Shown in pieces: positions 30,514-62,964 of a stretch of 64,000 bases of DNA. The position numbers and the translations under genes were made by a program. The stretch's first letter is position 1. The number at the start of each line of letters is the position of its first letter. The notes beneath the pieces are model-generated. The model worked only from the letters and a program-made list of their open reading frames with translations, made no database searches and had not been told where the DNA came from. The stretch comes from Brucellaceae bacterium (lineage in GTDB: Bacteria > Pseudomonadota > Alphaproteobacteria > Rhizobiales > Rhizobiaceae), in assembly GCA_020637775.1 (NCBI GenBank), contig JACKJV010000008.1:148294-212293 (forward strand). The letters are read 5' to 3'.

Positions 30514-32289
<1,776 letters not shown>

Positions 32290-32336: not shown

Positions 32337-32368
32337 AACGCCCCGTGGCCCTGGCCGCGGGGCGTTTT
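32337..32368 (+). terminator. Intrinsic terminator of the symporter operon
   Basis: AACGCCCCG pairs perfectly with CGGGGCGTT, with an inner GGCC/GGCC pairing, and TTTT follows. Confidence 0.75.
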
Positions 32369-32475
32369 CGTGCGGCGAGCCGGTCGCGCGGCCCCGTCGC
32401 GCCACCGGCCTTGACAATCGCCGCCCATGACCACACCTTCTAGACATGTTCAACGAAATGAAAGGAGGTGATCCG

Positions 32476-32541
32476 ATGTCGAGTGATTTCCTGAAGGACG
32501 TGAGTGCAAGCGGATCGTCGCTCCTTCGGAGCAGCCTCTGA
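32476..32541 (+). CDS. 21-codon ORF behind a perfect anti-SD complement
   Basis: A 21-residue ORF begins MSSDFLKDVS, ends SSLLRSSL and has eight Ser and four Leu. Its ATG is one base after GAAAGGAGGTGATCC (32460-32474), the exact complement of the alphaproteobacterial 16S rRNA 3' end over 15 bases; AGGAGG itself sits 7 bases before the ATG. A perfect -35 box TTGACA (32411-32416) lies upstream, but I find no good -10 at 17-18 bases. Two exclusive hairpins span the end of the ORF: GCTCC/GGAGC (32520-32532) and CCTTC/GAAGG (32523-32544). The nearest co-directional gene is over 1.1 kb away, so it looks like its own unit, either a small peptide or a ribosome-binding RNA. I do not recognise it. Confidence 0.55.
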   Translation: MSSDFLKDVSASGSSLLRSSL

Positions 32542-32568
32542 AGGAAGCGTGCGTGACGCCATGAGGTA

Positions 32569-32586
32569 AACCGGCCTTCGCCGGTT
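32569..32586 (+). terminator. Hairpin ending the small-ORF unit
   Basis: AACCGGC and GCCGGTT form a perfect 7-bp stem with loop CTTC, 27 bases after the small ORF stop. The tail CGCTTCAG is not a T tract, so termination here is only likely. Confidence 0.4.
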
Positions 32587-32623
32587 CGCTTCAGACAGGC
32601 TCGCGCCCGTTCACGGAATTGCG

Positions 32624-32669
32624 GCGCCGCCCCCGCCGGTCACACCGACCGGAGCAACGGGGGCGGCGC
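32624..32669. repeat. Long GC-rich nested stem-loop
   Basis: GCGCCGCCCCCG (32624-32635) pairs perfectly with CGGGGGCGGCGC (32658-32669). Inside lies a second perfect hairpin CCGGTC-ACACC-GACCGG, with a one-sided 5-base bulge AGCAA. It sits 80 bases past the end of the leftward nuclease gene. The bases 32670-32748 hold nothing else I can support. Confidence 0.5.
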
Positions 32670-32748
32670 TTCGCATGTTTGGCCTCGCGGTCAAAAGGCC
32701 TCGTTTGCTTTGCATGGCCCGACCCGGAATGGCTGCGGTTCCTCTGCC

Positions 32749-33189
32749 TCAGGGGCACCAGTCCTGCCGCCGTCCTCCGCCATAGGGCCGCGCCAGCCCG
32801 GCCTCCAGAAGGAAAGCGGAAGCGCCGCGGCCGTCGGCCCGCGCCAGATCGGCCAGCACCCGACCATAATACTTCCCGCCGGAAATGTTCGTCAGCCGCA
32901 AATGCCCGTCCTGCAGGAATCCGGCCAGCGAATCCCGCGCCTTGCGCGCCGCCGCCTTTTCCGCGCCGCACCGCCCGCGCAGTTCCGGCGCGTCCACCCC
33001 GCGAATACGCACCGACACGGTAACCGAATGTCCCGGCCAGATTTGTGCGACCGCAAGCACCGAATCGCCATCGATCACCCGGATGACCTCCGCCTCGACA
33101 GGGCCGCGAATGGTGTCCTGCGCCGCAGCCGGCAGGGCGGAAAACAGGTGGCAGAACAGAAGAACCGGACAGGCGAGGCGAAGCAGCAT
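32749..33189 (-). CDS. Secreted thermonuclease-family protein
   Basis: This is a staphylococcal-nuclease-like (SNase) domain of about 115 residues behind a signal peptide (residues 1-23, ending PAAAQ). The catalytic pattern is intact: Arg in VRIRGVDAPEL, Glu of the same segment, and Arg in KYYGRVLADL. At 146 residues it is a minimal secreted nuclease, probably cutting DNA or RNA in the periplasm or outside. ATG 33189 is chosen because the signal peptide starts there; an upstream extension to 33282 has no support. No strong Shine-Dalgarno is seen. Confidence 0.85.
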   Translation of the reverse strand: MLLRLACPVLLFCHLFSALPAAAQDTIRGPVEAEVIRVIDGDSVLAVAQIWPGHSVTVSVRIRGVDAPELRGRCGAEKAAARKARDSLAGFLQDGHLRLTNISGGKYYGRVLADLARADGRGASAFLLEAGLARPYGGGRRQDWCP

Positions 33190-33290
33190 GAAAGAGACAT
33201 TATTCCTATTTCCCCCGCAAGGCAAGCCAAATAGGATTTTATTCCCGAGACCGGCGGTCACTCGCGCCGGCCGTTCCGCCACAGGGCGCC

Positions 33291-62888: not shown

Positions 62889-62964
<76 letters not shown>

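Follow-up and report, generated by a model that had tools for sequence, protein, structure and literature searches.

Results

Organization of the locus

In the window, by which we mean the whole 64,000-nucleotide stretch of DNA that was analysed, a symporter-like gene and the intrinsic terminator behind it are followed on the plus strand by a putative structured RNA, whose features are collected in Table 1. Near the 5′ end of this RNA, GAAAGGAGGTGATCC is a mismatch-free complement of the 16S rRNA 3′ tail and forms an extended Shine-Dalgarno (SD) sequence. It is found in one exact copy in the window, and three matches with 3 mismatches lie elsewhere, where chance would give a mean of 1.79 matches at ≤3 mismatches. 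The 15-base perfect complement, the ATG and the 21-codon ORF of the original prediction are thus all present, and the pairing does exceed that of the window's normal genes, as was claimed: even when starts are chosen liberally, the window's 44 long ORFs have no contiguous 16S-tail complement beyond 7 bases, a length reached in one, and 31 have 4-5 bases.

The upstream terminator and the TTGACA box named in that prediction are also found. A strict sigma-70 consensus scan of the window found no promoter for the small RNA, and the CACCTT hexamer would make only a weak −10 element. The TTG of the −35-like box is shared with relatives, being found at −51, −50 and −49 from the SD in 12, 18 and 14 of 61 non-sphingomonad representatives, with the window among the carriers.

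The predicted fold of 32450-32673 has an energy of −113.7 kcal/mol (z −5.34), equalled by none of 200 shuffled sequences, and it leaves the SD mostly exposed and unmasked. Alternative hairpins had been proposed over the last codons of the ORF, and alternative pairings are indeed available there, in that GGATC..CTCCTT (32512-32526) can pair with the SD (−16 kcal/mol) or, in the predicted fold, with its neighbours. A downstream hairpin had also been proposed as a border; a hairpin does lie near 32570-32585, but it is internal in the predicted fold and is not the end of the unit. The RNA likely ends at the last predicted hairpin, 32623-32670, and the element would then extend ~85 nt past the end given earlier (32587). 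This hairpin was not reported by two terminator scans, and our own terminator script caught it only with a relaxed T-rule that was applied to the window alone. With our script, terminator-like hairpins are found at 155 of 165 unique loci, a count that includes one non-member (L047). The proposal of an autonomous unit is supported. The long 16S pairing is conserved widely across the class.

Table 1. Features of the small RNA locus and its borders, in window positions
Feature	Position	Strand	Basis or remark
Upstream gene, symporter-like	30514-32289		by eye
Intrinsic terminator, upstream border	32348..32363	+	stem of 6 pairs, tail GTTTTCG; behind upstream gene
TTGACA, −35-like	32411..32416	+	sequence; TTG shared with relatives
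CACCTT, putative weak −10-like	32434..32439	+	poor; similar hexamers in relatives by eye
Structured RNA, ~225 nt	32449..32673	+	model R2, 82.7 bits, E 2.8e-18; RF01867, 32452-32669, 28.4 bits; fold z −5.34
Short 5′ leader TTCAACGAAAT	32449..32459	+	similar in relatives
Extended SD	32460..32474	+	15-nt 16S tail complement
21-codon ORF, peptide MSSDFLKDVSASGSSLLRSSL	32476..32541	+	ATG 32476-32478, TGA 32539-32541; peptide not conserved, unlike the start, the stop and the open frame
P1 5′ strand GTGATTTC, codons 3-5	32483..32490	+	covariation, predicted fold, RNAalifold
Internal anti-SD CGGATCGTCGCTCCTTC	32511..32527	+	complement of SD, about −16 kcal/mol, z −2.74
GGAGCAGCCTCT motif	32528..32539	+	GGAG competes for the CTCC of the anti-SD; 48/163 loci, all three frames
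P1 3′ strand GGAATTGC	32615..32622	+	predicted fold; shifted register in window MFE
Last hairpin, probable terminator	32623..32670	+	predicted fold; poor T-run (TTCG); counterpart helix covaries in relatives
Next larger ORF taken as gene	32749-33282	−	

Relationship to RF01867

Comparison with covariance models identifies the window RNA, with high confidence, as a divergent relative of Rfam family RF01867 (CC2171, a Caulobacter sRNA that reportedly goes back to Landt 2008). Positions 32452-32669 align full length to model positions 1-159 with 28.4 bits and an E value of 3.1e-4 for 461 nt, and the gathering score of 75 is not reached. Eight other loci align full length as well, in 8 of 8 cases and at 24.5-43.3 bits (E 9.1e-6 to 0.38), all of them below 75, and in three whole genomes the best RF01867 match is the locus of this family (E 5.3e-5, 2.0e-4 and 0.0057). 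Weak RF01867 scores are unspecific, since at E ≤ 1 the model also matches 5 of 14 non-alphaproteobacterial control genomes (B. subtilis, Synechococcus, Thermus, Deinobacterium and Thermotoga). The gathering score is passed by 14 of 20 family loci, which were picked mainly as Caulobacter-like types.

The window is linked to loci above the gathering score by R2, a covariance model for which 36 of the 47 sequences in our alignment A1 were used; it excludes the window, L003, L011, L068, L100 and six sphingomonads and retains Mesorhizobium-type loci such as L050. R2 finds the window RNA over its whole proposed extent (32449-32673) with 82.7 bits and an E value of 2.8e-18, where by our estimate the SD alone gives ~28 bits of this type. 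It also finds three sphingomonad loci (E 5e-13 to 1.2e-11) and gives only 10.1 bits to an ordinary gene, L047. L186 and L213, found by R2 with 74 and 71 bits, score 95 and 90.5 against RF01867; L173 and L185, which are above the RF01867 cutoff too, sit in R2's training set. Weak opposite-strand matches of R2 in L186 (26.8 bits) and L213 (13.6 bits) are, in our reading, terminator matches. By model and structure the window RNA adds a new and divergent member to an RNA family already known, though its score lies under Rfam's own cutoff.

The two share more than an alignment. The RF01867 consensus has the same 5′ leader and 16S complement, a GUG in the start slot, a terminator and, before it, a closing helix that is common to both, although the window's MFE structure places it in a shifted register. 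Unlike our reading of the window, the Rfam entry is of type sRNA and its description line names no ORF. A 215-nt RNA-seq transcript of Mesorhizobium huakuii, MH_s33, has been assigned to RF01867 (PMC5596092), and the family is listed in the Rfam 15 paper with one additional covarying pair (PMC11701678). The literature was searched by sequence, name, accession and concept, largely in the main texts of freely available papers, and within that coverage we found no description of an ORF, a 16S complement or an anti-SD in an RF01867-type RNA and no function for one. The suggestion that the locus is undescribed therefore holds for this anatomy, which is new here, but not for the family, already known in Rfam as the sRNA CC2171.

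Conservation of the SD and the start codon

An exact 18-mer scan of species genomes gave at least 119 loci. By organism name, all but one of the 80 matches listed are alphaproteobacterial; the exception, L047, comes from an Oscillospiraceae genome and is an ordinary gene of greater length, not a family member. In most of the other loci a short 5′ leader (..CAAC..G) leads into the 14-base 16S complement; the start codon comes next, then a short ORF, then a terminator. An exact pattern that requires ATG matches in 30 of 385 class-wide genomes. With the start slot left free (14 SD bases, four free bases, then TC), there is one match each in 121 of the order's 297 genomes; the slot holds ATG or GTG in every one of the 121, and the reversed-pattern control gave 0 matches. 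All loci of these three scans were selected by a perfect SD.

A model, R1, was also made from 47 loci, all with a perfect SD and ATG or GTG, and it favours such matches because it was trained on them; it does not require ATG or GTG, and TTG is let through. At E ≤ 0.001, R1 has matches in at least 71 of 289 class genomes (a single match in 70 of the 71), and a phylum-wide model scan has matches in at least 48 of 249 genomes, counts that are lower bounds given the strict filters and the 9-10 candidates scored per genome. Among the 72 class-wide R1 matches, the start slot holds ATG in 42, GTG in 21 and TTG in 6, and three further matches have ATG, ATG and TTG after a spacer one base shorter, which brings the total with an initiator codon to 72 of 72. 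The SD is complementary to the 16S tail at 14/14 positions in 45 of these matches, at 13/14 in 21 (hence at ≥13/14 in 66 of 72), at 12/14 in 4 and at 11/14 in 2. The 69 matches with normal spacing contain 29 SD changes, confined to positions 1, 11, 12 and 14; in 20 of them a wobble pair with 16S remains, in the other 9 the pair is lost, a bias that is partly explained by the fact that transitions are commoner than transversions in general.

From these comparisons we conclude with high confidence that initiation at the start slot is under selection, with the caution that family loci are related and the counts not independent. The weight that the original prediction gave to initiation is in keeping with this, and a lack of SD and ORF conservation in related genomes, which would have spoken against it, is not what was found: both are conserved.

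In the phylum-wide scan, 12 stretches were examined among the 48 genomes and stand outside the start tally; the SD core is present in 11. In L262 and L264 the ATG lies nearer to the SD core. Two genomes, G021 (L219) and G334 (L268), have two model matches each where one is usual, and L268, the second and partial match in G334, has no AAGGAGGTG SD core in the examined stretch.

The reading frame and its peptide

Frame and codon counts were made for 163 loci, L047 and L103 having been dropped. No stop occurs before codon 15 in any of them and 159 stop at codon 17-36, while the other two frames are closed before codon 15 at 67 and 74 loci. The ORF has 14-56 codons in the 72 class-wide matches, and its length and sequence vary freely between lineages. 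The highly made Ser/Leu-rich peptide that had been suggested is unsupported, as the peptide is not conserved beyond Ser2; some coding constraint is indicated because this residue is kept in 68 of 72 class-wide matches. In 48 of 163 loci the GGAGCARCCUC motif lies towards the end of the ORF, and its reading frame differs between them, with 38, 7 and 3 loci in the three frames.

The proposed check of third-codon substitutions gave no clear excess of synonymous change. In close pairs of sphingomonads, 682 of 3823 single-base codon differences are synonymous against 946.5 expected, and in close non-sphingomonad pairs 147 of 525 against 126.3, neither set of pairs being independent. Purifying selection on the peptide is clearly not indicated in the sphingomonads, and the slight synonymous excess is confined to the others; we rejected a functional peptide on this ground. 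That the frame is selected, a conclusion in which our confidence is high, and the peptide hardly so is what the comparison suggests: a frame that is kept open and ended while its amino acids are nearly free points to ribosome passage, not the peptide, as the selected trait.

Several lineages have ORFs of their own kind. In L122 (the ORF after 1500) and L239 a 56-codon ORF looks secreted by eye, with a hydrophobic stretch followed by Ala-Cys or Ala-Glu-Cys, and a role for the peptide itself may have arisen there. The ORFs of L235, L236, L263, L264, L265, L270 and L272 have 13-18 codons, most with VLExxVGT-like residues. L266, L267 and L269, from genomes of 6.9-7.5 Mb, share a near-identical 14-codon ORF, V-S-[YF]-T-K-R-C-H-L-A-G-I-A-R, and carry TCACCTC and GGGATC, which might lie opposite the SD.

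Helix P1 and the internal anti-SD

Codons 3-4 are predicted to pair with the strand before the terminator in a helix of five pairs, P1, which begins at +8 from the start codon. In 47 sequences two-sided changes are found in 4 of the 5 pairs of P1 and in 7 of the 7 pairs of the terminator helix. Together the helices have 58 two-sided cells against 12.8 ± 3.1 when shuffled and 7-25 when slid, in a test that favours them because the structure was set from the consensus of the same alignment. The same P1 is found by RNAalifold on A3, another but overlapping alignment; both alignments, A1 with 47 loci and A3 with 36, consist of loci of our own choosing. P1 strands also fit their own partners better than swapped ones, with 14.5 versus 11.9 (sd 0.25, 94 loci) and, when sphingomonads are left out, 13.8 versus 11.7 (sd 0.3, 62 loci). 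For this comparison ten loci in which no terminator was found and nine named ones were dropped, and the 146 remaining of 165 were thinned to 94, of which 32 are sphingomonad-type and differ little in P1. In the family register, GTGA/TCAC, the 3′ strand in the window would be the TCAC at 32611-32614.

Within the ORF of the window lies a predicted complement of the SD. To see how widespread this is, 229 of 244 loci, those with a terminator, were thinned to 148 (L047 and L103 dropped). Measured against shuffled sequence, the best downstream partner of the SD in these 148 RNAs has a mean z of −1.00, with 47% below −1, compared with −0.04 and 14% for a reversed SD probe. In 78 of the 148, versus 30.5 expected, this partner starts 21-40 nt ahead of the stop. 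The signal is carried by the 114 non-sphingomonad RNAs (mean z −1.22, 66 below −1, 71 of 114 at 21-40 nt before the stop); the 34 sphingomonad-type RNAs have a mean z of −0.24, with 4 below −1 and 7 at that distance. An anti-SD latch would not be general, since sphingomonads mostly lack the anti-SD. The predicted energy of the 14-base duplex with the 16S tail is −24 kcal/mol and that of the internal SD/anti-SD duplex averages −13; SD/anti-SD pairing inside P1 would be a pseudoknot.

Some anti-SD sequences are placed or composed differently. The best anti-SD of L235, L236, L263, L264 and L265 lies ~118-126 nt after the SD start, outside the ORF, and L264 carries CCCACCTCCTT. In addition to its SD, L025 has GGATCACCTCC in the 3′ half of its RNA, a sequence identical to part of the 16S tail.

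Gene neighbourhood

No neighbour gene common to all loci was found among the 120 compared. The largest downstream gene families cover 22, 21 and 18 of the 120 loci, on either strand, and in the window the next gene is on the minus strand; a conserved regulated gene downstream in the RNA's own unit is not seen. An upstream gene is common to 69 of the 120 loci, sphingomonads by sequence type, and its cluster is lipoprotein-like by eye. An acetyl-CoA-synthetase-like gene (by eye) lies upstream in 18 of the 120, the window included. We also considered whether the locus is a 16S gene fragment, in sense or antisense, and rejected this because the complement is followed by a start codon, ORF, P1 and terminator that are shared with relatives.

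Discussion

Kinship, start, frame and helices are supported by comparison, and a conserved start and stop around an unconserved peptide suggests that being read by ribosomes is this RNA's job. Our preferred reading, in which we have somewhat less than even confidence, is of a small mRNA-like regulatory RNA in which translation and not the peptide is selected, probably as a ribosome-controlled switch; for the switch itself our confidence is moderate to low. In such a switch, the 5′ leader would offer a 14-15-nt complement to the 16S tail, predicted to be mostly single-stranded, with an initiator codon one base later. The short ORF, kept open and ended 14-56 codons on, would serve the passage of ribosomes, while codons 3-5 can pair with the strand before the terminator and an anti-SD lies, outside sphingomonads, mostly 21-40 nt before the stop. 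When initiating 30S subunits are plentiful, the 16S tail would beat the anti-SD for the SD, as the predicted energies allow, and translating ribosomes would unfold P1 and, towards the end of the ORF, sit on the anti-SD, so that a further 30S finds the site free. Without initiation, P1 would close and the anti-SD, where present, could take the SD. The RNA may in this way report initiation capacity through its fold, its stability or its exposed strands.

Among the roles originally offered, a ribosome-occupancy sensor fits best, given the covarying closing helix and, outside sphingomonads, the anti-SD near the stop. The predicted fold of the window RNA, which leaves the SD exposed, the poor T-run of its last hairpin and the lack of an anti-SD in most sphingomonads are points against our preferred reading. 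Ribosome profiling of Caulobacter by Schrader 2014 speaks partly against a translated RNA, in that most ncRNAs there are intergenic and such regions untranslated; two earlier Caulobacter ncRNAs are translated, and the relevant passages of that paper do not give their names (PMC4117421). The full extension of our reading, to a class-wide RNA that matches the entire free 16S tail, whose product is translation itself almost whatever the peptide, and which, with an anti-SD latch near the stop in most non-sphingomonad lineages, acts as a self-reinforcing sensor of initiation-competent ribosomes, we consider doubtful.

The same long duplex could instead tether 30S subunits while P1 hinders their accommodation, with translation as no more than a release step. 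Such a 30S-holding RNA would account for a pairing over 14 tail bases that often survives SD changes as wobble, for a P1 that begins 8 nt into the ORF, for the exposed SD and for the sphingomonads, mostly without an anti-SD. A conserved start codon, open frame and stop are more than parking needs, however, and a single gene copy in 70 of 71 genomes with a match may give too little RNA for 30S pools, and we think this unlikely. A micropeptide could be the functional product, as in dual-function sRNAs, and the conserved start and stop, Ser2, the slight synonymous excess in non-sphingomonads and the secreted-looking ORF of L122 and L239 are in its favour. The sphingomonads show no such excess, though, the GGAGCARCCUC motif is read in every frame, and lengths and sequences differ freely between lineages, all of which makes a micropeptide quite unlikely. 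That the RNA is an ordinary trans-acting sRNA, as annotated, with an incidental SD and ORF, would agree with its Rfam type, with the strong predicted fold and the terminator-like end in most loci, and with the mostly untranslated intergenic ncRNA regions of Caulobacter (PMC4117421, in the passages drawn on above). It is very unlikely in our judgement, for initiator codons and open frames in 72 of 72 matches and starts in 121 of 121 free slots are hard to call incidental.

The remaining explanations come from known classes of small mRNA. In type I toxin mRNAs such as hok, tisB and aapA1, the SD is masked by an internal anti-SD or a 5′-3′ helix, and similar parts, a long-range closing helix and in many members an anti-SD, are found here. 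The peptides of the window's family are short, variable and mostly not hydrophobic by eye, however, with no conserved toxic peptide seen, and the gene is single-copy in most genomes with a match, so that a toxin-like mRNA is extremely unlikely. Leader peptides and attenuators, too, typically look like this, with a short ORF and alternative hairpins that overlap, but there is no single downstream gene to be controlled, the window's next gene points the other way, and most loci end in a terminator-like hairpin. We rejected this explanation, which seems to us extremely unlikely, because a common downstream gene is absent.

Parts of the proposed anatomy have precedents. rnTrpL/peTrpL of Sinorhizobium meliloti is, in the accounts drawn on here, a small RNA that derives from an attenuator and has a tiny ORF, translated into an acting peptide (PMC10117765, PMC7298713), but it is leaderless, a real tryptophan attenuator, and its 14-aa peptide is functional, whereas the window RNA has an extended SD and neither a conserved peptide nor a conserved downstream gene. 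Pos19 of Rhodobacter sphaeroides resembles it as a 219-nt coding sRNA with a translated sORF; as far as the passages drawn on describe it, Pos19 differs in having an RpoE promoter, in being confined to R. sphaeroides strains, in needing its SD only partly and in an effect on targets that persists when translation is abolished (PMC5036791). Extended SD initiation in Staphylococcus aureus also uses an SD-aSD helix beyond the core, there at ~30% of initiation sites according to the part of the study drawn on (PMC13009471), whereas here the whole tail is matched, usually at one locus per genome.

If our preferred reading is correct, an RNA family filed as sRNA is built around being translated, with a peptide that is nearly irrelevant; Alphaproteobacteria would have a genetic reporter of ribosome availability, and the family would show, in nature, an SD duplex of the greatest length that the 16S tail permits.

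A further likeness is to Rfam RF02471 (Ms_IGR-5, an Actinobacteria sRNA), which has a 5′ GGAAGGAGGUGGUCC close to the 16S complement and a terminator-like end; unlike the window's family, its consensus has no initiator codon in the slot. RF02471 aligns to window positions 32454-32672 with 22.9 bits (E 0.0016; cutoff 45), and kinship is not supported: a whole-genome search with it in G001 and G004 did not pick the family locus. Ms_IGR-5 is possibly an independent RNA with the same 16S bait. Elsewhere in the window lie an ffh sRNA (RF01793; 56073-56124, minus strand), at 55.7 bits above its cutoff, and a tRNA-Ala (CGC) at 62889-62964 on the plus strand.
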